64,000 bases of DNA from Terfezia claveryi (Eukaryota > Ascomycota > Pezizomycetes > Pezizales > Pezizaceae). Location of the stretch: positions 186,001-250,000 of the forward strand of contig WHUX01000076.1 of NCBI GenBank assembly GCA_015179025.1, written 5' to 3'. Positions 17,820 to 63,389 of the stretch are shown here, piece after piece. How positions within the stretch are numbered: position 1 is the first letter of the stretch; every line of letters begins with the position of its first letter. The notes under the pieces are model-generated. The model was not told the DNA's origin, made no database searches, and was given only the letters and a program-made list of their open reading frames with translations. Both the position numbers and the translations under genes were made by a program.

Positions 17820-20800
17820 TCACGCTGCCACAGCGATCAACCCAACACACATCGCCGGCGCCTCCGTATAAAGCTCGCTAATCTTATCCACCAAGCCCTT
17901 TGGAATCTTACCATCCACCGCTCTTGGCTCTGTCAAATCCCACCCAAATACCTCAAGCAACGCCCAAACTTTCACCGCATCCATTGCTGCACCCAGTCCC
18001 AAATCGGGTTCCAACCACCTATCGCCCACCTCCTTAAACTGCTGCAACTTATCATCTAATCTCGATAATGGGCTCCATGCCGCAAGGGCGACTTCAGGGT
18101 TCGGGAATGCTCCGAAGCCAGCAATCTGCCCCATGGATTTCTCCACATCGAACTCCGCAATAATATCTGGGCTGCGGCGTGGCTCGGGGCTGTAGAGCTT
18201 AACCCCAGTCATGAGGTCTACGGTATTACCGCTCGATCCATCAAGGAGTTCTGAGGTGTTGCCAGTTCTTGTAGGGTCCAAGGATTCGTCGTCTGCAATT
18301 GTTTCAATCAATTATGTTTGTCCAGACACACGTGGCAGGAGAGGGAAAGGACAGAGTAAAAACTTACATTTTCCCCAGAGGGCACATGGTACCGAAGTCA
18401 TAACGGCCTCATTTTTATTCCATCTCGGATTCAGTGGTACAGTGTCCTCCCACACCATTGATTTAGGTAAAACCGGGGTGATCTTAATTTCCAAGGTGGA
18501 CTGGTTCATTGGATCCACCAAGCCCATGGGCCTAGCGTGCACCTCCGCCTTCGCTGGATTAACCACCTTGTCCTCCGGGACTGCTGCATTCGAGTCCGGA
18601 GACCCGGTGAGCACCGTCGCTTTCTTGACTGCAAATTTACACGTTACCATAAATGCAAAGATCGCCCCACGAACGGTCCAGGGATCGCTATTCGGACTCG
18701 AATGCGGATTCTGTGTCGCGTCCGATAACAGCCCACTTGTACACGAAAACACATATGGTGCAGGTTCCTGTGTCCCACAATCGCCCCCATCCAACTCCCC
18801 GTGCATGGTGTTGGTGGCCGGAGCCTTCGAGTCTGTCTGCAACACCTGCTTATAGAACGTGTCTAGATCAAGCTTGGCCACATTCCCAGCGTCGCGATGG
18901 CCAAACTCTACATCAAATCCGAAGACATAAAAGTCCACATGCACTTTGCCAGCTATTGGGGGACCTTCGAGGTATAATGTAGCACCAAGATCAATGCTGA
19001 TATGGATTGTGACGAGCCACAAGTCCAACACGAAATCAACTCCCACCGTAATCCCTCCTGATGCCATGAACCAGAACGGCTTGTAGTTGATGAGGAAGTC
19101 TGCCCAGGCGTTGAAATATGCAGATAGCGGGCCAAGGGAGAGGGTAATGCTCAGTTTGCCGCCACCCATACACATCTTCGGGGTGATAGCGAAGTATGCT
19201 TCACCTGTGATGTTGATGCTGGAGTCGAAGTTCCAGCTGATACCCAGCCTGGGTGGATTCGGGTACTGCGAGGGAGGCTTGAACGCAGCATGATAACCAC
19301 CCACGGTGAAGACCCAATTTCCTTGCATGCTGTCTCGAGATCCAAACCAGCTGTACAAGGCGAACCCACCATAAAGATGGCAGCTAGGGTCGAGGACAAA
19401 GGAAGCGGGAGTGAGCTGCCCGTCAACTGTAAGAATTCCGGCTCCGAAATCGATAGTGGCGGCAACACCCAGCTGAACACGGACAAATTTTCGCTCACCC
19501 TTCTTTGGCATCTCCGCTGTAGCAAGACCAAATATTCCGAGCTTGACATTCGGTGAGAATTCCGCAGCTGCAACAACACTAACCTCAAGCATCTCGAATG
19601 CCATAACCGTGAAGCCTGCAGCGACCCAATATGAGTCCCGCTTTGGCGAGAACCATCCTGAATCCAATAGCTTTGATAGAGCTTCTGCAGGGGTAGAGGA
19701 ATCAGGGACGGCAATGAAGGGGAAGTCAGGAACCTCCGTAGCTTTGGGGAAGCGTAATGTTGAGTTATACCCGAAACCTCCAGTCAGCCCTCGGATCTCT
19801 GCAAAACCAATGGTAGCAATGGGTCCATCGAGACGACAGTACGCGAAAAATGATTTAAACACATCTCCGTCAAGCATCAGCGGCATGGAAGCCTTGTCAC
19901 GGCTCTCTCCATAATAACCTGCAGCGGTGAACAGATAAGGAATAAAACCAAGGGATGCACCGCCCTGGTAATAGTCAAGTCCATCTTTTTTCCCATGCTC
20001 AAACATGCCTGCGAGAGATATTGGTTCTTGTTGAAAGGATGCACTGAGGCCATTCAGTCCGAAACTGGTGGTGATGCTGCCAAAGGTTTTGAGGGTAAAG
20101 TCTTTCCCGAACGTGAATGACACGGAAAACCCTATCAGACTCAGGTCCAGTGGTCCCAGTTTAACGCTGCCGTCAACGATGATAGATATGGTACGAGTGG
20201 ACAAATTGAACTTGAGACCTAAGCCAGAGATCTTCACTGGTCCAATTACTTTGTTGACCGGTGACGTTGAAGCCCCATCATCGGATCCAGTAGCATCGAT
20301 AGTAAAATTGACGGGCACCATATTCACCTCCTGGTCCTTCTCCTTCTTCTTCCCACCAAAAGCATAATCAATCAGAATCTTCTTATTATTGATTACCACA
20401 AAGTGAAACCCATAGGAAAGAAGAACGTCCTCCGGAGTCTGTTTTGAGGGTTTGACGTTGTCTTTATACATGATCCCCGGTTCTCCATCTGTTAAGGCTG
20501 CCGTGATCGCAGCAATCTCCCCACGGGTCAGCCCATCAGAGTCCCCACCACTAACCCAAGAGAAATGTAACTCATCAAACGGCGACTTTAATGTTCCAAC
20601 GAGTGGGATACCCGAAACGTCTCCCAAACCGGGCATGGAGAACATGAGAACACGTTTGGTAGGCGTAACAGTCATAATGGACGGGTTCGCCCTCTGCTTT
20701 TGGACCTGATAGAAGACAATGGAGGTGCCATCACCCAACTGGACACGGAAAACGACAACCAGATATTCCAACTGTCTCTCGATCTTGAAGGAGGTTAGTG

Positions 20801-23800
20801 CCGTGTCCTTGGCTGGCAGTACATCAATCTTGCCGATGAAATCCGGGAGTGCCTCCGCGGTTTCGTCGCCACAGATGCTACGAACAATATCCTTCAGCTG
20901 GGTTGCAGGCGAATCCACAAATAGGCTCGCATCAAAGGTCCACCTGGGAGTCTCGGGGCTTTTGGCTTTACCGTTATGGATGTACTTGTATGTCAATGCA
21001 AGTGCGCCGAGATACAGCATCCCGTTTGCTTTGATCGTGCTCCCGTTCCCCGCTTTGTCGTACTTGTATTCAAGCGCGAGATCGAGGTGGATGTTCTGTA
21101 ACAGGTTGACAATTTCGAGGTTGCAATCGTCATCAAATAGTGAGTACAGTAACCCGCCGGTTAAACCAGATACTTCCCCGCTTAATGTCCACGCTGGATC
21201 ACTATACACCACTTCCAAAGCAATATTGGCAGACAAACCCGTGTTTGGCGCTGTCAGGATGAACGTGGTGGCAATACTTAGCTCCTCCAGTTTCTTTTTT
21301 TCGAAATCAAACTCCAAATTCAGCTTCGCGGCGCCTAGTCTGAGAACTGGTACCTGTGATTTGGCGGGATTCGGTGGAGGGCTCATGACTATGGCATCAA
21401 ATGTAATCTTTGGTTTTCCAACGCTGAAGCCGAGGCCGACCAATTGGAGTTGAGTCGGCCCTGGATTGAGGCTCTTCTCCTGGCCCTCACTCTTCGTCAA
21501 AGTACTGTATATCGACCCCAAGTCTCCTACTGGTGTAGGGCTCTCCTCGTCGCTTGAGTTTGGCTTCTGCTGCGGAGCAACTGGTAGTGCTGTCCAACTC
21601 TCGTAGTCTGGCATGTACGGTATAAACTCGAAGCTTGGGCCAAGTTTATCTACCCTATTCTCTGGAAATAGCCCCCCATAGAAAGTTACTTGCATTTCTG
21701 GCTTGATCACAATATTAAGGCCACATGAGAGGACCATGGTTGCCCATGTCACCTGGAAATCCAACGAGACCGTCTTCGAGGGCTTAATAGTCCTCTCTGA
21801 TTTGCTATACCGTACTCTTCTCAAAATCAAGTTATCAAGCCCGGGGAGATAATCTTTCAGCTCCGGAATGGCCACTTCTTCGGGAAGCAAGCTCGCAACA
21901 AAGTCGATGAGATCAGTGACACTCCGTCCGCCGCCGCTCGGGTCAAACGTAAGCACCCAGGAAGTCTTCTTCGGCTCCAGCACCAATGCGGTCTCAACGG
22001 TTAGTTCAAACTTCGATCTCGGCCCTCTGATTCCCACAAGGGCCTTGACAACTAACTCAGACTCCAAGATACTGCCGTACGGAGTTTGGTCCGCGGGGCG
22101 GCGTATCCAGCACTTCTTCGTAATCATCCGAGGGTTGGTAATCTTGATATCGATGCCAGTGACTTCCGTAATTGCAGTAAGAACTTCCTTCAATTTTCCC
22201 GACAAGGTGTCATTATTCCCCGTGGCGGTAGGCTTGAAACATAATCGGAGGGTTGTCTTGTAGTTGCTGCCCGGAAAAAACCATAGGGCATTTTTCGAGC
22301 CGGCGGCCGCGTCGAGAGAGAAGTTAATTAACGAAGCGAAAGCCTTAATGGTCAGGGACTGTTTTATGCCAAAGCATTCGAAGATATTGCTCGCCTTGAA
22401 TTGCGCCTGGCTGATTGCAGCATCTTTTGAAGGATCGAGACTCATCCGAATCATTTGTCCAGAACCTATCACATCCGCAGAGTAGAGATGGATATCACAT
22501 GGTCCGACTTTCTGGATGGCAGTTGTGCTTGCCACTTGGAACGCCTGTGGGTTGTTCTCGCTGCTAAATGTAAACGTTTCTGCAAACCCGTCTTGTGTTC
22601 CCAACTTCGCGCTCAGCTGAAACTCTGTCATATTCGTCAATGAAGCTCTAACTTTGAAAGTGAACGCTGTGTTATCAACTGAGCCGACACTAGATGCTAG
22701 CCACTGTCCCAGCTCGTCTGATTCGTGGAGTTCAAGGAGCTTGCCATCTTGTGTTAATTTTTCGGGAAATACAAAGGCACCGGTTTTGAGTCTCCCAATC
22801 ATGAGATCGAGGTTACTGTCCTTTAGAGCAGTTTTTGTGGTAAAAATGTTCTCGGTGGTCACTATCTGGGTCGTGCTAGAAATGAAGTAGGTGAGGCCAT
22901 CGTCCATTGGAGTCAAGGGCGTAACAAAGTTGATATCTAGCCGTATTGACAAGCTAGTCCATGGACTGGTAGAATACGAGTTTCCTCTTGCAGGTAAGGG
23001 AGAAGTGAGTTGATTATGTTGAGAAGATACGTATGGCACCATTGCGGAGCTCTCCTCGGCGTCTGGGTCCAATGCCAGTGCCTGTCCAGCCTTTTCGCTT
23101 ATGAGGCTTCCACGAGCGAGCTTCCTAGCACTCGGCGTTGCAAGGTTCGCTCTGGTTTTATTGTTGACAGTCATGAAGAAGACCATTGGTGAGGTAACCG
23201 CCTTGTCCCGCTGATGGCCACATGCCAACATATCCGGATCTTCCCGATGTTCTTGCAACGCTGCCATGAAATCCGTGAAATCCACTGCTGCGAAATTTGG
23301 GCCGTAATAAGGGCTAATATCCGTCATCATCTCAGTTTGAGATCCAATATTTCCATACCACTGTCTCATTCCTATCAGCCTGACTGTCTGCCCCTTCGAG
23401 TGCATTATTCCATTATTCACAGAGACGGCATGGTAATAACTGTCTGCGTCTATGACGGACACTTCATCCCAGTTCTCGTCCAAATACTGGCAAACAATGT
23501 CACCCCTTTCGTTCTGCTGAGATCCGCTAGGCATTTGGTAATCTAGCAGATGTGGCGTGTCGTCTCTGGTTCTGTTTTGGTAGAGTTGCCACATGGTGCT
23601 GACAGCAATCTTCCAATCTTCTGAATTTTTGTCACCCTGCACTAATGATTTGGTACTCCCGGGTGTGACATAAGTTGCTATTCCGAAAGCCTGGTTGATC
23701 CAGTACTTGCAAAGATAGATTGGGTAATTTGTACAAAATAGCCGGGGTATAACAGTTGTTCCTGGAAAAGCGGTGGGACGCCAGTGGGCGTAGGCGTGCA

Positions 23801-25256
23801 AAAGAACCAATATTTCCCAGGCTTGATAGATGTTAGTACAAATCCTGACGATACCAAACCCAAAAGAATAATCGACCGAGGCTTCTTTGGTACGTACAAA
23901 CATGGTTATATGTAGTTACCAGGCTATTCGAGGCTATGATATTCTCCGGCCTCCACACAACAAGTAGTGTAATCGGTGTTGAGAATTTTGAACCTACGAA
24001 ATTCCACAAGTCAGGAGCAACTGCCAGGTTCTTGAAGGGAGGTACGTACCATGATGTGACAACTTGAAATTCTTTACTTGCACGGGTATCCTTTTTTCTG
24101 CATTTGCGGTCGTTGGTAAACACGACCATCGTAGCACTTGCTCTTCCACTTCCTCCCCCAGGTCTCCGCCAAAGTAGTGGGAAACGACTGCACTCGTTGC
24201 ATTGGGCCAGATGATCATTGCGGCGATTGAAGACTGATTTGCTCCCGTCGTTGTACCAATGATCGCCGCAGCCTCGACATCCCCTGCTTGCGCTGCGGGT
24301 CCGGCAGCAGTTTGTTTCCCATTTCCAGAATTCCCTCTTATCCCAAGCACTTCTTCCCAGGTTCCGCCTTCCTCCAAATCCACGACCCCCGGATCTAATA
24401 AGCGAATATTTGTGAGGTCGCTGCTAACTTTCCACTCCATTTTCTTCCGCCTGTCCAGTTCGGCTGGATAGCAAAAATTCGTGTCCGACGCTACGCAAAA
24501 CATGACAGGATAAGGATATGATTTTGACGCCAGGTGCTGTGACACCTGTAGAGGAGAAGACGCATTCGCATCTAATTGCTGGTTCGTAAAGAAATCGTAA
24601 CCTATCATCTCCGCGCTCTTCTTGAGTTTTGCAAACCTGACCTTCACCTCCCAGCTAGTAATTTTTCCGACCGTTACTTTCACGTTTTGAGTCGATTCCA
24701 CATATTCACTGCTGCTATCCAACTTCCACTGCGAGACATGAGATTTTTTCAACGGGAATTCTTTCCTTGTCTTCGACTCCGTTGCGTTCCAGTAAGGGAC
24801 ATACAGGACTGTTGCTGGCGTCCAGATGTTTGTCGTGGAATTTCTGTCATACTTGCAGAACGTGCATTGCAATTCTCCCGTCTGTAGCAGTGTATCCAAT
24901 TCTGCCTGTGTTGCAGGTTTCTTTGCTGCGATGAACTTTTCAGCCTGTTTTTTGAGATCCTCCTGAATGAGGTCACGTATGCCGTTGATGTGGTCAATAT
25001 CCCAATGGGTAACGACGATGCTATTGAAAGACTGGAAAAGGCCGACTGAGCCAGCACCTTGTCGGGTACGATAATCTTGCAGACGGACTAGACCTATGAA
25101 TTGTTCTATGCAATCCTTCCCGTATTTTTTCCCACCATCAATGAGTACAGCGGATTCAATGAGTGGGAATGAATTGTCGACATCGACCAGGAAGTGGACG
25201 GCACTATCGCCTTCGTCGATATTGAGGTGGAAAGAGTGGACTTCTGCTTTGACCAT
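17820..25256 (-). CDS. metallo-beta-lactamase/DUF6603 fusion protein, 2380 aa
   Basis: Five exons: 25256-24050, 23993-23920, 23821-23707, 23641-18368 and 18292-17820. All four introns are GT-AG (56, 98, 65 and 75 bp); intron 2 has a perfect TACTAAC. Lengths sum to 7143 nt with every junction in phase. ATG is at 25256 and TGA at 17820. Residues 1-465 form a ComEC-like metallo-beta-lactamase fold: HLNIDEGDS near 10-18, metal-binding THWDIDH at 83-89, SHHGS at 400-404. Residues about 1200-2120 match DUF6603, a long beta-rich domain: KLGPLDLSLIGFSVSF, then VGGYHAAFKPPSQYPNPPRL, then GEAYFAITPKMCMGGG. The MBL part is a predicted metal-dependent hydrolase; its substrate is unknown. DUF6603 has no known function. 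No signal peptide or membrane helix is apparent. No stop breaks the large exon, unlike the flanking transposons, so it is probably under selection. The neighbouring large genes suggest a shared module (inference). Confidence 0.88.
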
Positions 25257-26432
25257 TCTGGAGTTTGCAGGAGTGCACGAAGCCCCACAAGATGAATTTG
25301 CAAGGTAATTGAGAAACCACTAGAAACAAAATATAGATACTTTGAGTGCTCGTGTAAAATTCGGGATTGTTTACAAGTCTTTGAATACCCCAAGTCGACT
25401 GGGTGCACCCCAGCTTCCTTGCAATCGTTTTGGACGCATCGTCACCAAGAATTCGAATTTTCCTAACCAACCTTGAGTAAGTCGGTACATACGTCTTCGT
25501 ACCAGCATGATAGGTATGCTGTGCTGGATAATGTGTATGCATGAACAGCTTCCCCGGGTTGTCTCAACTTCAGCTCCCCTGGGTGATAACTAAAAGGTTC
25601 CGGCGCGGCTAGCTGAAAGCATTGCCAAATGAGTATGATTCGGACCTGCATATATGAAACCCCAGCTCACAGCACTTTCACTATTCCGTAGGTATCTATG
25701 CAGATTCCGTACTCTCCTCCGTAATGTTAGCTGTGGCTGGGAGCTGGAAGGCTACCGTACCGCATGCAGTCGCTTCATGTAAAGTGTACATAGTTATTCT
25801 GCATGTTGGTGCTCCATAACTTCCCCCCACGCATCGTATGTCGTATCAACTCACCGACTGGCGTCTAAAGGAAATATTGTAGCCATATTGCATGACAACT
25901 ATGGGTGATTTTCCATTGTAATGTATTTCGGTATGATAAGCCTATCCCTTAATAGTCTGGTTGACCGATTGGCCCCAGATGTTAAACATACGTACGCTTA
26001 TCATTCGTATTTGCTATTATGTACAACGTTGGCAGATTCACATTTTGATAGACATAGCGTTGCGCACGTTCATCCTCGTCTGATATTGATAACGTGACGG
26101 GCATTCTATTGGCCACACAGATACCTACTTAAGTACTTAGACATAACTCAGCTCCAGACTAACTTAGCTCGGTAGTCTGGTTGGCAGTCAGCTCGGTATG
26201 GCAATACATGCCGTGTATAGACTAGCAGTAGTCAAAAAGAGTCGTATCATGTGCGGGGATTTTCTGTGTCACACCTTGGCACCTTGGCAGGAGCACTCAT
26301 TGGTGGCGTCACAGGGTTTCAGAGTACGAGCCTGTACAGAGTACCTTAGTCTGGTTGGCACAGAGTACCTAGCCATGACAGGATCCAGCGCGTGATATCC
26401 GCATACCACATGCCTTCCCAACACAGCGGCTC
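25257..26432. other. intergenic region upstream of the MBL-DUF6603 gene
   Basis: Holds the presumed promoter of the gene starting at 25256. Three copies of the dispersed motif AGTCTGGTTGRC occur at 25953, 26174 and 26348. No gene is supported. Confidence 0.5.
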
Positions 26433-27435: not shown

Positions 27436-30400
27436 CTAAGGCTTAGGGTCATTCGCCATAGTCTGCTTCATCTGCAAGTAACCCTCCACGGCGGTATACG
27501 GTCCTTTCTCTAACCTCGGTCGCTGATCTAATGTCCCAATATCTAACGGCATATAGCGATCCTTATCATATGGCTGTAACCAAGCCCACTCCGCAGTCTT
27601 CAACGCCGGCATAGCAATCTTTTCACCTGGAACCAACCGGTCTAGATCGTACTGCCCTCTCAGCTGATAGTTACTATCAAAGGCAGGGACGTCCTGGGTA
27701 ACAATCAGGGGTCCAATGTGGAAAAACGCAGTCATATTCCTCAACGCAGTTTCCCAGGTCCACGTTGGTAATTTTATAGATCGTATAGGCAGTATACTTG
27801 TGTATGCGTTTATAGGGAGGAAAGGGTCAATAAGTGCACCGAAGACCTGGAGTTTATTATTGTGGTCCAACTCAAACGATTCGTAACCCGCGTCATCGAG
27901 TTTGAGATAGCCCTTGTCCTCGCCGTTAAGGTCCAGCCAGAAGGCTTCAAATTTCGGATAGGTCGTTCTGTCAATTGGCTTGATGGGGTTCCCTTGATCG
28001 GCGTCGGATTTCCCGAAATAGGTGAAGATCTTTGTGAGATCCAAGGCATTGCCATCCGTCTGTGATTCCTTGCCGAGAGTCCTAAAATATCCAATGAGTC
28101 CGTCTGTCCGCCGACTCTTATCACCAAACTTGATGGGAAAGCTATATACTGTTTTCACACCGGGCCCCGGGAGCAGGCCTATTGGCAGATCGAGGCCCTT
28201 CTGGTTCCCGAGCGTGGATTGGGTTACCTTTGGCTTTGTGGAAAGTTCAAGAGACCAACCAACATGTACCAACGCCAACGGACGCCCAACGAGAGCATTT
28301 GCAAATTGGGCATACGAAGCGGGAGGGGGTGCAACATCCTCCAGGGCTGTCTCAACCATGTCAACGAATGCACGAAGATATACCTGATCATTCTCCATCA
28401 ATTTCAGGAGCAATTTGTCCAATTGCCCCATACGCCAATCAATAGCACCCTTTTCAAGGTTTTTTGCAGGTTGGAACGGAAGCCATTTCGAGGTATTAGC
28501 TATGCCCTCGGTGAGTCGGACCTCGCGGTAAAATGTACCATCCGGGAGGAATAGTTGAACCCCTCGGTCTACGTAATTCATTACCACCCACCCCCAGATG
28601 GGATTCTGCCAGTCCGTTGCAGGAACCCAAAGTTGATCGTTCTTCCCAATATCCTTCCCACGAATCACAAAGTGAGCATTCAGCCGCGCGGGTTGGTTGA
28701 TAGACGGCGGCAGCTGAACAAACTCACACAAATCGGGCTTATCCGAACGAGAAGGATCGACGACATTAGGTAGGTTGGAATTTGGCGCAGTTTGGTAGGC
28801 GTAAAACTCACTTACCCAGGGGTAAATTGGGGGAGTTCCTAACTTGACTTCGGGATCGATTGCATAAATTGTCTGGCCAAATTTATCTACCACGTTGATT
28901 TTCCTGAACCGAAGTTGGCCATGCGTAACAGGCTTGAAAGCGGGAATGCGGGTTCCAAGTAGACTTGGGTTAGAGCCGTACGGGGTGGGATCGGAGTTTT
29001 TGTCGATCAGAGCCAGCTTTTCCCTGTTTAATCCTATTTTATTACCGGTCTCCTCCGCCGCAACAAGTGGTATTGGCTTCAATCCAGGTACTCTCACCAG
29101 CGGCTTCACGTGGGTACCCACAAATTCCGTCGTCAAGTGCTGCGTGAGGCCATGGAGGGGACAAGATAAAAAGGTGAGGTTATCAAGATTGTCCTTGAGG
29201 TGTTCTCGTTGAGGTAGGGGTAAGAGTTGATCGAGCTGATCTTTTGGGACGGTCGAGAAAATTCGATCAATGTGAGCGCTCAGAGCAAGTTTTGGCTGCG
29301 GAAGTATCAAATTCCTTCCGGAGGCAATCCTGGTGTCCTTGTTAAACTTTTCTCTCACGTCGGTTATCAACCCGAGGGTATGTTTCTTGTCTGGGGGAGG
29401 TAGCCTTGCATCTCGCTCAATCAATGCCCAATTTTCATATGGTATATGGGTATACTCTGCCTCCCATTCGATAAACAACGGGAACCAGGCCTGCGTTGAG
29501 CCCCACCTGTCTCTCCATAGGACATCCTTCCCTGGCGTACGATTCTGCTTCTGACCGTCATGATACAAAGGGAAGAACCTAGGGATGGGGTGCTTTTTAA
29601 ACACAGTCTCTGAGAAGAGAGTTAGAAATTCTCTGACAAGCAATTCTCCACTTGTTTTCAGAGCCGATGGGAGGCGGTCCACGCAAAAGGACTTATCAAG
29701 GTCCTTCAAGTCGCTAGTAATTGTTTGATTGTCCAATCTGACTTTCAATTTATTCTGAAAGTCCCATGGCCAACCAGAACTGACACCCGCAATGAAGATT
29801 GTTGGGTCCTGGCGCTGATGAAAATCCTCGAGAACACCAGCCTGAGGTGCCGTCTTGAGGGTGCCCTTCAACTGCTCGAGGCGCTTTTGTAGATACTGGC
29901 TCACAGTGCGCTGAAGAGCCTGAAGCTTCTCTATGATATCGGCCACCTGCCTACTATACTCATCCCTCGTAGCACTGTTTTCGTTATCAATATCTGAGAT
30001 ATATTTCCACCAACATGCAAACAGCTCCCACTGTAGTTGCTGGGCTCTACGAGCTATGCTATTCACGAGGCGCTGCGCAGAGTTCAGCCTGAGGAGGTCG
30101 GCCGACTCAACGGCTGTCGGGGGCTTTATCTTATTTTCAGGATCATTGTTAGGGTAAAAGTAGTGAGTACCACCACCGAAGTGTGCAAAATTGTTACTCT
30201 GGATTTCATCCGCCGCTTGGATTTGGGCGTCAACACCATCATCGTCGGCTCGTAACAGGGTCTGCAGCTGCCAGATATCATCTTCGACACTCCCGGAGGT
30301 GCGGTGTACCCCGACATATGCCAGCAAGGCATCCATTGTAGTAGTCCCCACTGCCACTGGTGTATCTTTGTCGGAATTAAGTTTCTGGCAGCAGTCATTG

Positions 30401-31503
30401 GCAGGAATTTTAGGTGGTTTTTTTTTTTCTCGGGCATCCCACTCAACGTCGTACATCGCCCCATGGCAGAGGACTCGAGCACCATCTGGTGAGTCTAGCC
30501 ATTTGGTGATATCAGCTGGTACATCCTGATTCTCGAATAAATTAAGTTCCATGTTCAGGGCATTTAGCCGGTCCTTGCGTAAAATCTCAGGAGAACCCTT
30601 TTTGACGCTCAGTAGATCGTTTTCTGGCTCTGCATGCCATCCGAGGACGTAATAACTAGCCACCGTTGCCTGCAAGTGTTTGGTAGTACCACCTTCATAA
30701 TACTCAAAAGTATCGAGCATGGAGAACACATTCGCACAATGATATTGGAAATCTGGAAATAACTGATTTGAGCTGCTCGTGACCGTCAATTCCACCCTCA
30801 CTATCGGGAAATTGCCATTCTTCTGGCCCTCTTCCCAGGTGGAGGCGTCGTGACGATAACCAATAAAGACCTCCGCTTGTTCTTGAATGCTCATATTCTC
30901 CCCCCCGGCCTCATGGTTCACAAGCGTCTTTATGAATGGGGAAAAATCAACTTGCAGATCAAAATTCGCCGGTATGTCGTCAATATTTTGCATTCGGTCG
31001 CCTTCTACCACCCAGGCCATGATAGGCTCAATGGGGGCGTTTTGTGGAACCGTTGTTGTTGCTTTTGGGTCAATCTTGCGGATGATAAGCCATCGGTTCG
31101 GTGCCGGAGGAAACGTCGGAGCACTATGATCCTGTGGGGTCGCCTTGATGCCCTTTGCGCTCGCTGCCTTTTCCTGGTCTCTAAAAGAGTCTGTAGAGGC
31201 CGTTCCGCCACGATAAGGACGAGGTACTAACCAATGGAGATAAACGCCGAGGCGGTTTTCCCGGAGCGTGGCGTTCCCGAGGTCGTAAAGGCGGGAATTT
31301 GCTGTGGGTGGGGTAGAGTTGTGGATATCAACATGGTCCAAAATGTCGCCTTGAGCCATATAGTCTTCCACACGGAGGAAAGTGTAGTTTGGCTGGCTTA
31401 TAGGTGCGATTTTGGCTTCCTTCGCTTGCCCATTGCAAACCTCCTTGTTGAAAACAAATGCGTCGAGTTTCACTGGGATGAGTAGGTTCTGTGGGTCGGC
31501 CAT
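27436..31503 (-). CDS. 1355-aa uncharacterised giant protein (PNRWL-type)
   Basis: Single uninterrupted exon. I choose the ATG at 31503 (MADPQNLLIPVKLDAFVF); the 13 further codons upstream begin with TTG. No named domain is recognised. Visible marks: GVYLHWLVPRPYR at 86-98 and PAPNRWLIIRK at 133-143. This pairing of an LHW motif with a downstream PNRWL motif is one I associate with very large uncharacterised bacterial proteins. A helical stretch in the middle (RRAQQLQWELFACWWKYISD and about 45 more residues) looks like coiled coil, and the C-terminal third is beta-rich (IRSIKLPTWTWETALRNMTA, FFHIGPLIVTQDVP). There is no signal peptide. It lies 2.2 kb upstream of the MBL-DUF6603 gene on the same strand, and its full-length frame contrasts with the broken transposons nearby. 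Probably a structural or scaffold component of the module; that is inference. Confidence 0.85.
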   Translation of the reverse strand: MADPQNLLIPVKLDAFVFNKEVCNGQAKEAKIAPISQPNYTFLRVEDYMAQGDILDHVDIHNSTPPTANSRLYDLGNATLRENRLGVYLHWLVPRPYRGGTASTDSFRDQEKAASAKGIKATPQDHSAPTFPPAPNRWLIIRKIDPKATTTVPQNAPIEPIMAWVVEGDRMQNIDDIPANFDLQVDFSPFIKTLVNHEAGGENMSIQEQAEVFIGYRHDASTWEEGQKNGNFPIVRVELTVTSSSNQLFPDFQYHCANVFSMLDTFEYYEGGTTKHLQATVASYYVLGWHAEPENDLLSVKKGSPEILRKDRLNALNMELNLFENQDVPADITKWLDSPDGARVLCHGAMYDVEWDAREKKKPPKIPANDCCQKLNSDKDTPVAVGTTTMDALLAYVGVHRTSGSVEDDIWQLQTLLRADDDGVDAQIQAADEIQSNNFAHFGGGTHYFYPNNDPENKIKPPTAVESADLLRLNSAQRLVNSIARRAQQLQWELFACWWKYISDIDNENSATRDEYSRQVADIIEKLQALQRTVSQYLQKRLEQLKGTLKTAPQAGVLEDFHQRQDPTIFIAGVSSGWPWDFQNKLKVRLDNQTITSDLKDLDKSFCVDRLPSALKTSGELLVREFLTLFSETVFKKHPIPRFFPLYHDGQKQNRTPGKDVLWRDRWGSTQAWFPLFIEWEAEYTHIPYENWALIERDARLPPPDKKHTLGLITDVREKFNKDTRIASGRNLILPQPKLALSAHIDRIFSTVPKDQLDQLLPLPQREHLKDNLDNLTFLSCPLHGLTQHLTTEFVGTHVKPLVRVPGLKPIPLVAAEETGNKIGLNREKLALIDKNSDPTPYGSNPSLLGTRIPAFKPVTHGQLRFRKINVVDKFGQTIYAIDPEVKLGTPPIYPWVSEFYAYQTAPNSNLPNVVDPSRSDKPDLCEFVQLPPSINQPARLNAHFVIRGKDIGKNDQLWVPATDWQNPIWGWVVMNYVDRGVQLFLPDGTFYREVRLTEGIANTSKWLPFQPAKNLEKGAIDWRMGQLDKLLLKLMENDQVYLRAFVDMVETALEDVAPPPASYAQFANALVGRPLALVHVGWSLELSTKPKVTQSTLGNQKGLDLPIGLLPGPGVKTVYSFPIKFGDKSRRTDGLIGYFRTLGKESQTDGNALDLTKIFTYFGKSDADQGNPIKPIDRTTYPKFEAFWLDLNGEDKGYLKLDDAGYESFELDHNNKLQVFGALIDPFLPINAYTSILPIRSIKLPTWTWETALRNMTAFFHIGPLIVTQDVPAFDSNYQLRGQYDLDRLVPGEKIAMPALKTAEWAWLQPYDKDRYMPLDIGTLDQRPRLEKGPYTAVEGYLQMKQTMANDPKP

Positions 31504-32044
31504 AATCGCTTGCCCGGCCGTCGCTTGCCTGTCCTGCTCCAATGACGATTCTCAGGCTTGGGGGCAAGACAACGGTATTGTTGTAAATTGCGACAGGAGA
31601 GAAAAGGGTATCAAATCTAAAGAACAAAAGTTCATTAATGTTCAAACTTTCACCCTGCACGGTAGTGGATATAATCATTCCACTTACCTCTGCACTTGAA
31701 CAAAATCGACTTTGACGAGAGAACTCCCGTGGCTACGATATTTTGGTATGCAACCTGTCTAGAGCTGAATGTGCGACATCCTCGATTCCTTATAATTGAA
31801 GTCGTGATACGTGGGGACTTGCATGGATATCTGTATGTTTCACTCGGTGAGACAGACCAGCAGCTGCACAGTTTGTCCCTCAGTGCGGGGAGCCCAATTC
31901 TGAGGTACGAAACTACATGCAGTACATATCTAGCTTTGCCAGGGCTACCGTAAGTATGTTGGCAGGGCGCTCGTATCTTCGCTGGTAGTGCTAGAGTGCT
32001 GATCCGATGCCCCACATACTGCGATTCAACTATACGAATCCAGG
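31504..32044. other. intergenic region, presumed promoter
   Basis: Upstream region of the minus-strand gene at 31503. No repeat or further gene is recognised before the MULE remnant begins. Confidence 0.45.
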
Positions 32045-32930
32045 ATGATGCCAATTCCTACAGATACTCTACACTACCGTACCCTTTTGTTTGAGCTCAG
32101 TAAACCAGCTGTTCTATCTGCAGACAAATTTAATGAAATACGGCTATATGTCGATTCAGTTTACATATATAACACTTTAACAAACAGTGCGAGTTCAAAA
32201 ATATGAATATCCTGGATGTAGCAAAAGATGTTTATACATAATAACAAACCTGTTGCCAAAAGTCATTTCAAAATCGAAGACTTACTGTTTCTACCAAACA
32301 ATACTCGGAAATCGGTCAGCTACCAGTTGCTATCAAAAAACTGCTTGCTATATATAGAACCTGACGCTGTTGCAGAATTTATTGCAGAGGGAAAATGAGG
32401 TATCTAAGTACTTGTTTTGGTCACAAGTTGCGATGCAATTGCACATTTCTCAGGTAATACCACTTACTTCCAAGTCGCTACCGTATCCCTACCATCTTAA
32501 TGGTGAGGTTAAAGTGCTAACTGCTACACAGCGGGAAGCGTATACAATATATGCAGAGTGTGGTATGGAGGGTATCTGTGACTATGGGTACCGGGAAAAC
32601 TGGTCAATAAGAGCCCTTGTCAATACTTATCTTTTGGTCTTCCGTTTAAAAGTAGCAGCGTTACTACTTGTGGCAAGATAGGCAGACTTGGCTACACGAT
32701 CAGTGATTCTCCTGTTGTGATTCACTTTTTGACAAGGGCTCTTATTCACCAGTTTTCCCGGTACTGGCAACAACAGCTCTATGCGATGCATGAGTCAATG
32801 GATCACCTAAATCTAGAGGATTCAGTTAAATATCAGCGAGTGGAGGAATAGGTTAATTACAGTATGTACAGGCAACGTTTAGGTTGTTTGAACGATATTG
32901 CAGGCAGAAATCGACCATGGGGAGTTGTAG
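32045..32930 (+). pseudogene. second MULE transposase copy, internally deleted
   Basis: Homologous to the MULE gene at 2.3-4.45 kb. It starts MPIPTDTLHYRTLLFELSKP, keeps YVDSVY and TVRVQKYE, then jumps over most of the core to the part matching QLPVPIQKLLA and LTPLQWEAYIGMFAECGMEV (here LTATQREAYTIYAECGMEGI). It ends with WQQQLYAMHESMDHLNLED and a GRNRPWG stretch. Frameshifts and stops are frequent, so it is more decayed than the 2-kb copy. A small MITE interrupts it. I did not find its long TIRs. Confidence 0.8.
32591..32761. mobile_element. 171-bp MITE nested in the MULE remnant
   Basis: Inverted repeats of 32 bp, CCGGGAAAACTGGTCAATAA... at 32591-32622 and its complement at 32730-32761, with one mismatch. 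TA lies on both sides (32589-32590 and 32762-32763). The MULE coding homology resumes directly after it, which marks it as an insertion. It has no coding capacity. Confidence 0.85.
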
Positions 32931-33542
32931 AAAGTAGGTATCGCCTCTCTATATGAATTTACCGGTAGTTTAACTGTATGAAATGAGCCTGCCTAGTCTG
33001 GCTTGCCTATATTAAATCTAGCAATTTTCGAGGGGCTTGTGCCAACTAGTCTGGTTGTGTGCCAACCAGACTAGTCTAGATACAGTAGTCATGCCGCTCT
33101 ACAATACTGTAACAAGTAAAGTGGCATACCTCTGCCGTTGCTTCTGCATAAGCACCGGTTTATTTCCAAAAATCAGACTTAGTTACTATATGTGTTGGCA
33201 TTCTGGATGTGCATAACTATTTATGGGTTTAGACATCTGGCTAAGTATTTTATGTCCCAGCTAAAATCCGTAAGTAATTCTTCACCCTCCTGATCTTCAA
33301 CTACGGTACCTATACTTTTTCAAAAATTGGACTTACTGCATAAGCTCGACCTATGTCTCTAAACTGACAAGGATCCTTGTTCGCCAGTGGTATATGATCA
33401 AGTACTGTCAAGGTCGCCTTGAAGCCATCCAATTCCAGAATCTCGAGTTGCTACCTCATTTACTGGTCAACAGAAATATTTCAATGTAAATCTGACCTTC
33501 TTACTACTATTCAAACACATAAAGTAAGGTATCTGCAGATAA
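32931..33542. other. spacer with AGTCTGG palindrome
   Basis: At 33048-33072 AGTCTGGTTGTG is directly followed by its near complement TGCCAACCAGACT, a hairpin of the dispersed motif family. No gene is supported. Confidence 0.5.
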
Positions 33543-34214
33543 CTACAATTTGACGTTGTTTAAATTTGGCGCATCTGCGATTGGGAGGTCCAGTTGAACC
33601 ATTCCGCCTTGCAATTGGAAATCCCCACTCTGAGCTCCAAAGCCTATGATCCAGTCCGTGTCAAACTCCGTGCCATCCATTGCTTACTTAGTCAGCAGGG
33701 CTTGTAAGACGCCCGCATACTTTGCACCAGCGTACAAACCACCCCCATTCTGACCGCACCCAGTACCGCCACTCCGCAGGACAGGGCATCCCTGATGGAC
33801 TCCAGAACTACTTTGACAAACCAGATGTAGGAGCTCGGTATCAAGCGCGAGCAGCATCACATCATGAGAGGCAGCCTGGAATGGGGTGAAATATTTGGGC
33901 TGAGAATAGATCGGGTTATATCTAGGTTTGACTAAGTTTGACTCTATAACATAAAACAGGTTTTTACGCGGCTTCTTGTTGCATAGCTACAAATCACCAG
34001 TTTCATTTTGTATATTCGTATCCTCAGATAATATATACTTACCGTGGTACCATTACCATACATGGTAATATTAGCCACTTCGAAAAAAAATGAGACAAGA
34101 ACTGCTATTTGTGATCATAACAAACTTCGGATACCAGCCATAAATTCCAGCAACACCCCGAGTGCCAAACCTAAGCACATCAATAAACCGCCCCTAGGTA
34201 CATCCTTTCGACTA
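33543..34214 (-). pseudogene. unrecognised gene fragment with intron, broken by two stops
   Basis: On the minus strand a protein-like frame runs from about 34214 to 34043, is spliced by a 143-bp GTAAGT...CAG intron (34042-33900), and continues to a TAG at 33543-33545. The first exon contains hydrophobic LLMCLGLALGVLLEFMAG and ends YGNGTT. The second reads PKYFTPFQAASHDVMLLALD, later GGTGCGQNGGGLYAGAKYAG, and ends TDWIIGFGAQSGDFQLQGGM plus 20 more residues. TGA at 34115-34117 and TAA at 33684-33686 break it; both fit CGA-to-TGA and CAA-to-TAA. I do not recognise the family. The start is missing; the left edge abuts the stop of the lectin-like gene. It may be a dead fifth member of the cluster, or a duplicated scrap. 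Confidence 0.5.
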
Positions 34215-34220
34215 CCCTCT

Positions 34221-35444
34221 TTACAACTTATCGAACACGCTCGAATAAACAGACTCCCTGGTCTTGATGTAGAACACACGGTTCTGGTCATCGTTTGTCC
34301 TGGCCGTAAGCTGACTATTCTGGTCCACCTTCACTGAATCACGAACGGCCACTGGGGTCGTCCATGGTCCCGGTGCTCCCGTCTGGTCAAGAACCGCGCT
34401 GCACTTGGTCAGGTAATGGGCACGGTTGACGAAATACACATAGAGCGTAGTTACGCCATTTTTAACGCTAGCTGTGACGGCGAGGGGGGTGCCCTTGGTC
34501 GCTCCAGAATCGGTTTCCGGGATGGATTGTGCTAGGGGATAGTGTTCGTGTTAGCGGCATTATAATTTGGTTAACAGAATTATAACAGAAGGGGTGGAGA
34601 GTAAGGTGAGGAGAAAACGCACGAGTAGCTCCGGTGGCAGTGGTCACGATGTATTGAATCGGGAACGCATCATCGTCTGCGCCTTGGAAGAAGACCACTC
34701 GGTGGTCAGAAGGCGGGTGGTAATATGCTGCAACGAAGGATATGGGGATGGGGCGTGGCTGGGAATAAATAACGACTCCAGCTTTCTTATTTCCTTCCTG
34801 ATGGGATTCCGTCAGTTGCGGTGGGGAGCCAAATATCCTATACAATTCTCACAAATGGTATGAGTTAATTGATAAATGTAGGTTTTCGTGGGGCAGGCTA
34901 TTTATTACCCTTTGAGAAAGTAAAACCAGCAGTTGTCATCCTTCTCAGACCCCCTCACATATTTACTCACGGCGGAGAGAGCAGATGGATATGTTGTCAC
35001 CATGGTGTCCCCCTTTGCGACGGGATTATTGAGAGGGCTAAATTGTGAAATGGTATAAGTGCTAATGTTGGACTTGACATCATCTGGGTCCGTTTTGACT
35101 TCATTTGCCATCATCCCATAAATAGTTACCTACAACCACCAGCAAGCACCGGGTGCTCCAGCATTTGATCAGTAAATATTTCGAAGACATCAGTCATGCA
35201 TGTTCTCCTTTGACTGGATGGTTCAATAACTACTAACAACACCTCTGCGCATGACAGCTGATATCGCACCAGGAACTGCATAATTGTTGGCCTTGGCCCC
35301 ATTGTCCGTGAATACGGTATCCGCCCCAGGGTCTTCCTCATAACGATCACAGGCTAGGATACGTTCGGGTGTCAAATAGAACAAAAGTGTCTCCTCATCA
35401 TAAACGGGGTTGGGGAGGGCTGCTGCTGGTGACGCTGCGCTCAT
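34221..35444 (-). CDS. lectin-like beta-propeller protein, 317 aa
   Basis: Four exons: 35444-35238, 35129-34909, 34837-34623 and 34531-34221. Introns of 108, 71 and 91 bp keep phase, and the sum is 954 nt with TAA at 34221-34223. The donors are GTTAGT, GTAATA and GTGCGT, none optimal, so the first junction is the least sure. The product reads as repeated four-strand blades: LLFYLTPERILACDRY, VVTIYGMM, NCWFYFLKG, FVAAYYHPPSDHRVVFFQG, LYVYFVNRAHYLTKCS, then NRVFYI. Length (about 310-320) and pattern resemble the fungal fucose-specific lectin family, six-bladed propellers that bind fucosylated glycans. The match is by pattern, and the conserved Arg/Glu/Trp sugar-site set is not clearly complete, so sugar binding is unproven. 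No signal peptide, as in other lectins of this kind. It lies between the two giant genes and could supply target recognition (inference). Confidence 0.65.
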
Positions 35445-36057
35445 GGCGAAGACTGCTGTTTAATAGAAGTGATGAGGGGGGGTTTGGAATATAGAAAGAT
35501 ATAGCTAATACCGTGTTATTGGAGAGAATTGGTTTGCCTTTCGGTGAGTGAATTTGCTATCACTATATATGGCTCGAGATACTACTAGTTAACATGGACT
35601 ATGGCATTAACAGTGGCTATCACTCCCTGTCAGTCAAGCTTACACTTGGGGAACGTTTCCCCGCTCATGAAGTGATCATGACATATACGGACCACATCAA
35701 ACATGTTTGATGATGCAGCTGAGGGGGAACGAGAGACACAAGCTGCAGTTGTTCGATATTCAGCTGAAGAGCTAGTGGCTAAAGAGAGGCGAGCTCCGAC
35801 TCAGCGCTGTCCAAAGAGTAGTATTTCCTAAACCCAACGCTGGTAGATTCGGCCATTTTTAGGAGGATCTGCCGCCTTGGGATCTCCGAAACCACCCATG
35901 TAGCGGGGAGACGAATACGAAGTATATACCGTATTCATTCGGTAGCGCTATCACCATACATACCGGTGGGATGACGTGAAATATATCAATTTGAGCCGGA
36001 CTAAAGTTCAGCACAAAGAGTAAAAACATGGATCGATATTGCTACTAGTACTCGTCA
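35445..36057. promoter_or_regulatory. divergent upstream region of the lectin-like gene
   Basis: Presumed promoter region for the minus-strand gene at 35444. A TATATATGG stretch on the plus strand at about 35570 (CCATATATA on the minus strand) lies about 120 bp upstream of the start codon. No other motif can be defended. Confidence 0.3.
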
Positions 36058-36320
36058 TCAGTTTGAGATTGTACTCTGAGGGATCTTAAGGTAACTAACT
36101 AGCTGCCTCAATTTGATTTGAGGACGGTATTCTTTAGTGCTCATGATCCGGTGGTGGATCATAAACATCAACAGTTCAATTTCTATAGCCTTTCCACGGA
36201 TAGCATTTCCATAGCTCCTCTTGACTCGCTTTGCTGGGGCGGGACGGTGGTAGAGAACTCTCGGAGTTAATGGCTTTGGTTTAGGCCCATACCGAGCTGT
36301 AAGTTTTTGGACCAGTGGGA
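36058..36320 (-). pseudogene. transposase-type HTH fragment
   Basis: The minus-strand frame reads ...PAPAKRVKRSYGNAIRGKAI, EIELLMFMIHHRIMSTKEYR, then QLVSYLKIPQSTISN and stop. A basic KR-S segment, a helix with LMF..HHR and YRP, and the HTH end YLKIPQSTISN form the N-terminal DNA-binding pattern of many fungal transposases. The rest of the protein is absent. It lies in the space between the lectin-like and the 1136-aa gene. Confidence 0.5.
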
Positions 36321-36330
36321 GGAGGCCCAA

Positions 36331-36879
36331 CTGCCTGGACTTTTGCAGCTATATTCACCACAAACCTATCTACTTAACCTTTCCATCTCCGGCGTTCACA
36401 TAACAAGGAGCACGGGCATGTCTCATAAGATCCTGAAACCCGCATATGCAGCTCACAGTATTCTAAATACTTTGGGGTACTTTCGCCGACTGGTTGGCGC
36501 TTTACCTAGTTCCTCTGTCGCCGACGCGTCGGTGTCACCAAACAGGGAACATTGCATATACTCAAGTCCGATCATCGACGTGTGACCTAAAGTACCTCTG
36601 ATGCGGGCCGACATGCAATCACAACATTGCATTTTGCTTTTCCCAGTCAGCGCAAATCGATACATGCATCACGCCAGTCTGGACTGGCGATAACACCGCG
36701 GACACAATCTCGTAAACTTCCAAAGGTTAGCTGCCAACTAGATGGCCAGTTAATTCAATATTTGGCAATGGCATTCTATTTGCAGTCTCGCATTTTCCGT
36801 TGAAATACAGACGCCACAGAGGAAAATTATCCATTGTCCGGTTGGAAAAATATCAAGTTATCGCGCTCAAAGTGATACC
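36331..36879. promoter_or_regulatory. upstream region of the 1136-aa gene
   Basis: No repeat or further gene is recognised. It must contain the promoter of the plus-strand gene at 36880. Confidence 0.35.
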
Positions 36880-39800
36880 ATGCGCCCTCCACGCCGTCGG
36901 CACTCGAAGCCCGTCAGTACCAGGCGATATCTGGCCCTTCGTCATGGCCACCGAGTCCTCAAAGCCCTCGAGTCTGGTGTCTTGAGCGACGCCAACGGTT
37001 CCACATTGCCCACAGGCTACGAGCGACTCTATTCCTCCGACGTGCCAGGTCTCCATGCTGGAATTCACCGTATCGACGTCAAGCAAACTATCCAAGCTCG
37101 GGAGGGTGAACCCGGGCTGAATGTCACAGGTTGCCAACAATTCAATGTCGTTGCTCCAAAATTTGTGTTGCCTCCGGAGGCTGTATACTCGGTGTACCCC
37201 CATCCAGGCCATAGTGCGAGGCCGGAGGTGTTGGCACATGTGGTGATGAATGATCCCACCCTTCCGTGGGAGCGATATGCGAGTGAAAACGCAGAGAGAA
37301 ATAACCCAGATGACTACCAGTGGAACCGAGTCCCATGGCTTGCGGTCTTGGTGTTCTCCCCGGATGAGCTCAAACTCAGCGATGCACAACTCACGGGGGC
37401 AAACAGCATCTTCAAAGAGACCAGCTTCAATGCCCAGGGTGCAACGCACACAGACACTATGGCCGTCGAAATCCCCGTTTCTGATCTCCCGAAACTCGAT
37501 AAGTCACAGGTGGCAGTACCGGCGACGTTCCAGGACGCCGAGATTTCAGCTGAGGAAGCAAAATTGACTGCCAACGTGGTCTTCCTCGAGAAGGACCTTT
37601 TCAATAATCTAGTTGCCAAATACGATAAGGATGGAAGGATAGTGAACGGCGGAGGTAGTGATGCTCCGGATGTGTCTCGTTACCGCTTTCTTGCCCATCT
37701 TCGGCACATCAACACTGAGGGTATGGCTTATGCTGACGAGGTCGATATCGGAGAGGATTCTGACCGCAACTTTGGAATAATTGTTGGTCACAGGACGGGT
37801 CCGTTAACGACCCAGAATCCCGTACAGGTGGCAGTGCATTTAGTTTCTATTGAAGGTGTGGAGCGAATGAAGCCGTACCCTGTCGAACAGGGCAGGGTTG
37901 CCTTGATCTCTTTATACAGCTGGACGTATATGTGTCTCCCAGCAAATTCTGCAAATGTAGCTGATATGTTCGAGAATTTGGGTCAAGGTAGCAATTGTGC
38001 CCCGCTCCGTCCGGTGCTGCCGAAGGATAATAAGCCAACACAGGGGGTGAAGCCGGAGGTTCAAGCACGAGTGTTGAAGCGCGTAGAGGATGGGTATTCC
38101 TTAACCCGCTATATAACTCAGACGGGGGAGAGAACTGCCGCATTTACGCGGGGACCGCTTACTCCGTCCATGGTTTCCTTCCCCTTGTTTACCACCCTTT
38201 CAAAGTCAGGTGCGAGCCTGCAAACTATGGATAGACAACTAGGTATCATGGATATCACATATTCCGCGGCCTGGCAACTAGGAAGGACTTTGGGAATGGC
38301 AGATCAAGCATTCACGGCTGCCTTGGGTAGGGTGCGCAAAGAAATTTTGCAAGAAGGGCATAATGAGGCACAAATCAAGGTGCTCCATACAGCTGGGATA
38401 TCTTACAAGCGCAAAGAAGAGTTAATCAAGGGTATGGCAAAGCTCATGCAGTGTCTCAAGGATCTTCCAGAGGATCGGGAGAAGGAAGGGGGTAGCGAGC
38501 TCAGATGGAAGAAAAATCGTCCCGAGGTGCCTAATCTCTCATACAATTCGATAGATATCCAGCAGATTATCGACGGTGAATTACTCAAGGCTGCCTACCG
38601 GGTCGGAGGAAGTGTTATTCAAGCAGGGAACACACTAGGGGTTGACGGCATCTCCCCTGCCTATGATGAGTTCAACACAGCGGCCTCCACAGACTGGATG
38701 ATTGTGCATCGATTTTTATGTGATTTGACATACCTTATCAACGTTCCCCCCCACTACCTTATCACCGACCCTTCCAATTTACCAGCTGAAAGTCTTCGGT
38801 TCTTCTATATTGACCGCAACTGGCTCGATGCACTTGCCGACGGTGCCTTGAGCCTGGCAAACCACATCGACTGTGAAGAGGACAGAGTTCGTAGAGCTAT
38901 CAAGGAGGCCTTCAACCGGTACTTCAACACGCCCAACAATAAGCTGAACTATCGCCCACCGGTCCCCGTATACGGATTTTTCTTGCGATCTGCACTGGTT
39001 GTGCAATTCCCGGATATGGTTGTCACCACCGATCCCGCTTTGAACAAATTGCAGGGCCCTGTATTGCTACGGCATGAGATTATAGACAAAGAAATCATGT
39101 TGTGCTTCCTATCCGACTTGCCCCAGTGGAGCGAGACAGAAAATAAACTGATCTCACTCACCTTCACCCAGCCTGCCCATCAACAATCTTTCGCTGCTTC
39201 GAGGAATATCAGCGCGACTGAGATTAGAATGCATTACAAACGTGTCTACACAGTTGCAAATCCCTCTGACCCAGATCGCAATGTAGCACTCGAGGAACCA
39301 GTATGGGAAAGGGGGCTGGCGAACGAACGGGGAACAATCTTTGTTTGGGGAAGTGCACCGGAGAAGCTGGACAATATCCGGACACTCATTATGGATAACT
39401 TTGCAAAAGATGTTCATACTTCCTTGAAAACGAAATTGAATGAGCCTCCGGTCGGCAAAGAAGGATGGTTTACGGAGCCTGTGCCTACTTCCGCCATGAT
39501 AGGTATCCAGCTCAATGACCCGTGCTGGCAACTCAAGGTTCAGGTCCCCCCACTTTCAAAGCTCCCATTGGCCCCAATGAGACTCACATACACAACTCCG
39601 ACTATTCCCACGGAAAGGAAGTCAGTCAAGCCTCCCAAATTATCACCCATCGCACCCCGTCCCACCTTTGCGGAGCGCAATAAGTCTCCTCTATTAATTT
39701 GTACCAAAAGCGCTCCATATTTCAGGCCAGTCATACCCGCACTCCTAGCAGAGCCAATATTTCGGCCTCGTGATGATGGTGATACCGTGAGATATCCTAC

Positions 39801-40290
39801 ATTTGCCTACCACGTTTCTCCCGCCGAAGACCCCCGCAGTGCTGATGTGTACATGCGGCCTTACCCCCAAGATCTTATCTTCTCCATTAGGTATCAGACG
39901 GGAGCTCTGGACTTCAAGCTAAAAAAAGTTACCATCTCCCTTCCCGTGGGGGTCATGAACGACCGAAGCCTCACAGCGAAATACAGTGGGCCTGGTGCGA
40001 CAATGCTATCAAATTTGCGCTTCGTTGTCCGGCCTACGTATTCTGCGAACAAACAGTCACTGGATTTGGTGTTGCTGCCGAGGAGTAGATCGAAGATGGT
40101 GCCTGTGAAACTAATCAAGGAGATGAGCTTCCTTTTGAGTGGGGTCAGGGTGATGAAATATGAGCTGCCATCAGTATCGGTCACGGTAGGGGTTGTGGTG
40201 GACTATGACAACAGAGCACCGATTATTGAGATACCATTCAATATCGTCTTGGTCCCTGTGAAGGCGACGGATGAGCAGATAGTAAATTGA
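36880..40290 (+). CDS. 1136-aa uncharacterised giant protein
   Basis: Single exon, ATG at 36880, TGA at 40288-40290. No named domain is recognised. The readable marks are GYERLYSSDVPGLHAGIHRI from 46, a PTLPWER segment at 126-132 and NRVPWLAVLVFSPDEL at 149-164, followed by LISLYSWTYMCLP near 345. I associate these with uncharacterised large bacterial proteins. The first 40 residues (MRPPRRRHSK...) are Arg-rich and look non-coding, whereas another frame offers ATG at 36944 (MATESSKPSSLVS) just before the conserved part. The true start may therefore lie there, joined by a small intron or a one-base error. There is no membrane helix or signal. It is convergent-divergent with the lectin-like gene and lies 5.4 kb from the 1355-aa gene. 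The frame is open over 3.4 kb in a repeat-rich region, which argues for an active gene. A partner of the two other giant proteins is inferred from position only. Confidence 0.83.
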   Translation: MRPPRRRHSKPVSTRRYLALRHGHRVLKALESGVLSDANGSTLPTGYERLYSSDVPGLHAGIHRIDVKQTIQAREGEPGLNVTGCQQFNVVAPKFVLPPEAVYSVYPHPGHSARPEVLAHVVMNDPTLPWERYASENAERNNPDDYQWNRVPWLAVLVFSPDELKLSDAQLTGANSIFKETSFNAQGATHTDTMAVEIPVSDLPKLDKSQVAVPATFQDAEISAEEAKLTANVVFLEKDLFNNLVAKYDKDGRIVNGGGSDAPDVSRYRFLAHLRHINTEGMAYADEVDIGEDSDRNFGIIVGHRTGPLTTQNPVQVAVHLVSIEGVERMKPYPVEQGRVALISLYSWTYMCLPANSANVADMFENLGQGSNCAPLRPVLPKDNKPTQGVKPEVQARVLKRVEDGYSLTRYITQTGERTAAFTRGPLTPSMVSFPLFTTLSKSGASLQTMDRQLGIMDITYSAAWQLGRTLGMADQAFTAALGRVRKEILQEGHNEAQIKVLHTAGISYKRKEELIKGMAKLMQCLKDLPEDREKEGGSELRWKKNRPEVPNLSYNSIDIQQIIDGELLKAAYRVGGSVIQAGNTLGVDGISPAYDEFNTAASTDWMIVHRFLCDLTYLINVPPHYLITDPSNLPAESLRFFYIDRNWLDALADGALSLANHIDCEEDRVRRAIKEAFNRYFNTPNNKLNYRPPVPVYGFFLRSALVVQFPDMVVTTDPALNKLQGPVLLRHEIIDKEIMLCFLSDLPQWSETENKLISLTFTQPAHQQSFAASRNISATEIRMHYKRVYTVANPSDPDRNVALEEPVWERGLANERGTIFVWGSAPEKLDNIRTLIMDNFAKDVHTSLKTKLNEPPVGKEGWFTEPVPTSAMIGIQLNDPCWQLKVQVPPLSKLPLAPMRLTYTTPTIPTERKSVKPPKLSPIAPRPTFAERNKSPLLICTKSAPYFRPVIPALLAEPIFRPRDDGDTVRYPTFAYHVSPAEDPRSADVYMRPYPQDLIFSIRYQTGALDFKLKKVTISLPVGVMNDRSLTAKYSGPGATMLSNLRFVVRPTYSANKQSLDLVLLPRSRSKMVPVKLIKEMSFLLSGVRVMKYELPSVSVTVGVVVDYDNRAPIIEIPFNIVLVPVKATDEQIVN

Positions 40291-59065: not shown

Positions 59066-59099
59066 CCCTTCTCTACTCTGCCAATCCCTCCTCTACTCT

Positions 59100-63362: not shown

Positions 63363-63389
63363 TATATGTTGAAGTGGCGCTTTTGAAGC

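Follow-up and report, generated by a model that had tools for sequence, protein, structure and literature searches.

A 64,000-nt stretch of the Terfezia claveryi genome (the window; contig WHUX01000076.1, C734:186001-250000, in an assembly of 72.6 Mb and 794 contigs) holds what is almost certainly one copy of a gene module common to fungi and actinomycetes. In this fungus it comprises a metallo-beta-lactamase (MBL) fused to a DUF6603 domain, two giant proteins that we call P3 and P4, and, as a candidate fourth member, a lectin-like gene. We directly observe a recurrent gene set, its order and close packing, gene fusions, linkage in several fungi, and the exchange of the tip of one bacterial protein. 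With a probability of about 40%, we propose that the products of these genes join into a multi-protein assembly able to recognise and act on a target surface, its likeliest use being antagonism among microbes or delivery.

The original prediction, made from the letters of the window, held that its large intact genes are clustered, and long open frames do lie where it had placed them (Table 1). The frames at 25319-23994(-) and 23915-18312(-) constitute one gene, because a 2420-aa Peziza protein (P0245) aligns collinearly across both, its residues 4-2404 matching window positions 25244-17790 at 44% identity (tblastn). In the fusion protein the MBL is N-terminal and the DUF6603 domain (PF20248) C-terminal; the domain scores 524.4 bits against a cut-off of 27 and spans nearly the whole Pfam profile (positions 1-498 of 502). 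The protein database contains entries from the window of exactly 1355 aa (P0005, P3) and 1136 aa (P0125, P4), confirming both sizes, and the best P3 matches reach E 0.0 across 98-99% of the query. Consistent with the description of P3 and P4 as giants of no known type, neither matched any family library tried, both staying below every Pfam and NCBIfam cut-off.

The module also occurs in bacteria. A scan of GTDB with a P3 alignment yielded 33 loci, one from Paenibacillus and the others from Actinomycetota; as these were fetched through P3, it is their neighbours that constitute the test. In 30 of the 33, DUF6603, P4 and P3 follow one another in this order on one strand, while two of the exceptions (L015, L041) are cut by contig ends and the third (L043) has DUF6603 downstream. 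Clustering of all long frames in 39 loci found only DUF6603 (35 loci), P3/P4 (36), a further protein, C (29), and MBL (7) in at least four loci. Packing is close: in 33 of 35 loci DUF6603 and P4 are separated by -40 to 200 nt, ten of these showing a 4-nt overlap (start codons set by rule), and in Streptomyces eurocidicus P4 and P3 form one 2077-aa frame (L042:7589-13822). Among collected plasmids, P3 and P4 each match an identical set of 8 records; of the 11 matched by DUF6603, seven belong to that set (the exception being P. sonchi).

A survey independent of P3 took 150 genomes of Streptomycetaceae, sampled around a single host. DUF6603 was present in 33 genomes, P3 in 20 and P4 in 22, and DUF6603 lay within 12 kb of all 25 P3 loci and of 25 of the 26 P4 loci. 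In 24 of the 38 DUF6603 loci both giants lay on the same strand within 12 kb, 23 of these showing the order DUF6603-P4-P3, and in 12 neither P3 nor P4 was found. Ten of these 12 were fetched. A diverged P4 close to DUF6603 was seen in seven (E 2.8e-8 to 3e-3) and a relative of a 1553-aa protein of locus L014 in five; L064 had neither. A second kind of DUF6603 locus is thus seen (L014, L056-L063, L065), in which many members have a diverged P4 (~960-1470 aa) and/or a giant related to the L014 protein. Of 199 Bacillota genomes, one was found to carry DUF6603, namely the seed itself. Two side observations concern the setting of bacterial copies. In one Streptomyces chromosome (G007:C1) two DUF6603 loci are mirrored near both ends (74420/8733827 and 91743/8716612), as in terminal inverted repeats. 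On the Paenibacillus plasmid (L010) genes for baseplate V, DUF4280 and a GH-E nuclease lie ~10 kb upstream of the module, and a PLD-like gene follows it.

In fungi the same genes are found widely, and in several they are linked. Those named among the best 120 of 370 P3 matches and the best 120 of 434 P4 matches are fungi that we recognised as Pezizomycotina, apart from Carpinus fangiana, which presumably reflects contamination; fungal names are also frequent among the 120 listed matches to the fungal DUF6603 protein. DUF6603, P3 and P4 carry locus tags only a few numbers apart (KY384_001268/001267/001265, TWF506_004137/004136/004134 and FGG08_004950/004951/004953), and matching contig sizes suggest common contigs for P3 and P4 in 47 cases, P3 and DUF6603 in 37, P4 and DUF6603 in 31, and all three in 22, although one of these 22 (5482 bp) can only be coincidental. 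The two giants thus neighbour DUF6603 genes in fungi as well as in bacteria, contrary to the condition under which the original prediction would have been refuted, and the proposed joint inheritance of a module is borne out by the bacterial adjacency together with the fungal locus tags and contig sizes. In seven bacterial loci MBL is a gene of its own, upstream of DUF6603; in the fungi examined the two form one protein, which argues for their joint action.

A P3 search of the T. claveryi genome detected one other locus, on contig C601, at 41% identity. Relatives of MBL, DUF6603 and P4 surround this P3 in pieces, at 24-46% identity (tblastn), and its DUF6603 scores 507 bits, so that DUF6603 occurs at least twice in the genome, once per module. 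The original prediction proposed co-acquisition from bacteria; as a recent event, this does not agree with a quick, unrooted P3 tree of 73 rows with long branches flagged, in which a single fully supported branch parts the 23 bacterial rows from the 50 others (metagenome proteins included). One ancient transfer between bacteria and fungi, in either direction, is possible. The window and C601 copies of P3 stand apart, both on the non-bacterial side; P0005 belongs to supported sets that exclude the C601 copy, and that duplication is therefore old.

The lectin-like gene yields a spliced frame of ~300 aa that looks lectin-like by eye. No lectin family, nor any other Pfam family at E 10, matched the 301-aa protein (approximate splice), which leaves the propeller originally ascribed to it unproven. 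The gene has a weak relative near the C601 copy, on P3's strand and upstream of P3 as in the window (E 0.001 within 60 kb; the best reversed-sequence match was 0.09), in partial keeping with a count of four genes; it was not found in the bacterial loci.

The bacterial C protein combines a conserved base (~235 residues) with a tip and, in many members, with short repeats that look fibre-like. We compared 13 chosen close loci (78 pairs), taking medians over the 34 pairs in which P3 was at least 83% identical. Median identity was 85.8% for DUF6603, 83.6% for P4, 86.1% for P3 and 85.3% for the C base, and 25.5% for the C tip, whose identity ranged from 15 to 77%, a few pairs having a tip in common. 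Such exchange would be typical of recognition parts and points to an arms race or a recognition role; it strengthens, without demonstrating, the suggestion of antagonism or recognition. The tips of 2 of 14 C proteins exceeded a Pfam cut-off, with F5/8 type C (7.4e-10) and PLAT (8e-16) domains, and 1 of 4 C proteins matched a tail-fibre PHROG (phrog_4549, 1.2e-6). In its conserved base, fibre-like repeats and exchanged tips C resembles the fibres of phage tails, tailocins and extracellular contractile injection systems. The core genes differ: P3, P4 and DUF6603 of one bacterial locus (L016) and P3 and P4 of the window gave 0 PHROG matches at E 0.5, and so no sheath, tube or baseplate family, which does not support such a machine as the identity of the core. 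Nor is a Tc toxin complex supported, as Pfam found no TcA, TcB or Rhs family in window proteins P0001-P0004 or in the bacterial proteins scanned.

The predicted structure of P3 (predicted template modelling score, pTM, 0.81) had no solved relative in a structure search, its best match to a viral structure was at E 0.17, and no P3 relative was confirmed in viral contigs. DUF6603 is predicted, less surely, to form long amphipathic antiparallel strands resembling porins and ApoB, the likeness to outer-membrane beta barrels and ApoB falling at model residues ~200-590. In contrast to this likeness, the DUF6603 sequence had no match in the PDB at E 10, and the structural matches are of low score and high deviation.

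From these features we infer a physical assembly with a target, an action on membranes and a use in antagonism. P4 and P3 would be its scaffold subunits, and DUF6603 would contact membrane or lipid, either as a pore or as a sheet that carries lipid. Target recognition would fall to the product of the fourth gene, C in bacteria and the lectin-like protein in this fungus, and the ComEC-like MBL might hydrolyse cargo, target or signal. Several results weigh against this proposal. No family beyond those of the module recurs in at least four of the 39 loci, and hence a toxin, immunity or secretion gene is not among the conserved neighbours. Confidence in the DUF6603 model is only intermediate (predicted local distance difference test, pLDDT, 74.4; pTM 0.56), and its matches have Foldseek TM-scores of only ~0.1-0.2 and a VIA root-mean-square deviation of ~10 A. 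No export signal was seen in P3 or P4, where the best 19-residue hydropathy is 1.31 and 1.32 and the N-termini were judged by eye. Finally, the lectin-like fungal gene is unrelated to bacterial C, which was not found at E 1 in either the window or C601.

The MBL bears on whether the module might instead act inside the cell. We aligned 24 rows, from seven bacterial loci, the window, C601 and 15 hand-picked long fungal proteins, and found common GQGD-like, D.G, H.D.DH, GGD and K..HHG motifs. The residues of H.D.DH are conserved in 24 (H), 21 (D), 23 (D) and 23 (H) rows, and both the second-site D and K..HH in 24 of 24; the window MBL carries all metal-site motifs, and the MBL of one bacterial locus (L036) is partly degenerate or misframed. 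GQGD and LK..HHGS are marks of ComEC, which these MBLs resemble. Under curated Pfam cut-offs the MBLs fall short (window, 17.5 bits against 27; locus L012, 21.8 against 22.7). PADLOC matched the window MBL to LmuA (6.3e-8) and RTasMBL (1.2e-6) and the L012 MBL to LmuA (1.2e-11), and Avs1a scored 23.4 bits against a cut-off of 420. PADLOC and NCBIfam matches place these proteins near ComEC-type MBLs and those of Lamassu (LmuA), reverse transcriptase (RT)-associated systems and Avs1, with which they share GQGD, H.D.DH, GGD and LK..HHGS.

This resemblance favours an intracellular defence system in which P3, P4 and DUF6603 would form a sensor complex, the MBL a nuclease-like effector as in Lamassu or Avs1, and the variable C tip a sensor of invaders. 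The patchy distribution of the module would fit, as would one Streptomyces locus in which conflict-system genes, CATRA and CHAT, lie upstream of the module at a distance of 5-10 kb (L009:4116-9172). We nevertheless regard defence as unlikely. MBL clustered in just 7 of 39 bacterial loci (flanks were often too short to tell), PADLOC matched none of DUF6603, P3 and P4, the recurrent families include no other partner, and tips that are fibre-like or of types that bind sugars or lipids fit surfaces outside the cell. Unlike in the known systems, no SMC, STAND, RT or protease family recurs beside the module MBL, and the fungal MBL is fused to DUF6603. For the SMC partner LmuB this rests on the same family clustering, the flanks not having been scanned singly for SMC; for the STAND and protease partners of Avs1 it covers the 39 loci, partners not having been sought one by one.

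We also doubt that the gene products form a complex with a structural or lipid-handling role at the surface of cells or spores, in which DUF6603 would carry lipid like ApoB, P3 and P4 would shape it, and C or the lectin would attach it to wall glycans. ApoB100 is the top Foldseek match of DUF6603 (8e-4), the strands are amphipathic, the C repeats are bactofilin-like (1.2e-4, below cut-off), and filamentous, spore-forming soil organisms are common among the hosts; in contrast, a distribution as patchy as 33 of 150 genomes and the exchange of tips are not what one would expect of a housekeeping structure. It is still less probable that a SusCD-like surface complex binds an extracellular polymer with its tip, passes it through a DUF6603 barrel and hydrolyses it with the MBL. 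The structural matches of DUF6603 do include SusCD proteins and porins, and 2 of 14 C proteins bear sugar- or lipid-binding tips, but actinomycetes of this kind, Paenibacillus and fungi have no Gram-negative outer membrane, and the families that recur in the loci include neither transporters nor glycosidases. That unrelated neighbours were kept together by chance in a repeat-rich window with a copia element is next to impossible, being refuted by genes that are adjacent in bacteria and several fungi and occur twice in this genome, by the order in the GTDB loci and by the 12-kb linkage in Streptomycetaceae.

No paper naming DUF6603 was found in the full text of 5.39 million open papers; the description of the module as undescribed rests on this and on the empty family libraries. 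In Pfam, DUF6603 stands as a lone domain without an assigned function, whereas in the loci studied P4 and P3 recur beside it, the fungi examined have it fused to an MBL, and its predicted architecture is one of amphipathic beta strands. Three giant proteins, of which two matched none of the families and structures tried, recur together in Streptomyces and its kin, Paenibacillus and many Pezizomycotina. If the assembly that we propose is a device for antagonism, it would be an unusual one, common to bacteria and fungi and, by the searches made, not built from phage tails. A bolder and less probable form of the proposal is a surface-targeted machine of a new class, without kinship to phage tails and common to actinomycetes and filamentous fungi, with a P3/P4 scaffold of new fold, a membrane-active beta DUF6603, an exchangeable fibre tip or lectin for aiming and an MBL effector, which would have passed between bacteria and fungi anciently and duplicated later in fungi. 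The function is open to direct test, given the tight gene order, the fusions and the tractability of the bacterial hosts.

Table 1. Module features in the window (window positions; C734 positions where given)
Feature	Position	Strand	Basis and remarks
MBL-DUF6603 fusion gene	17790..25256	-	Frames and collinearity with P0245; at least 2 introns, exon ends approximate
Main MBL exon	23997..25256	-	ComEC-like motifs EGD, DGG, THWDIDH, GGD, K.SHHG; PADLOC LmuA 6.3e-8; Pfam Lactamase_B_2 below cut-off
DUF6603 domain (PF20248)	18651..20258 (C734 204651-206258)	-	Residues 1220-1755 of frame P0001, E 3.6e-157
P3, 1355 aa, without family	27436..31503	-	Single open frame
Lectin-like gene	34224..35444	-	Splicing approximate, four exons; weak paralogue next to the C601 copy
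P4, 1136 aa, without family	36880..40290	+	Single open frame

Outside the module, the original prediction regarded all other coding DNA as decayed transposon. This description is borne out in part: six further frames that we scanned there matched no Pfam family. At 11518-12840 both strands are open over a tandem array of 66-78-nt repeats with strong GC skew, and no Pfam family was found in the two frames scanned. The description fits a copia-type element at 58828-63643 on the minus strand, which is bounded by two 238-nt direct end repeats of 98% identity and contains gag, gag-pre-integrase and integrase pieces.
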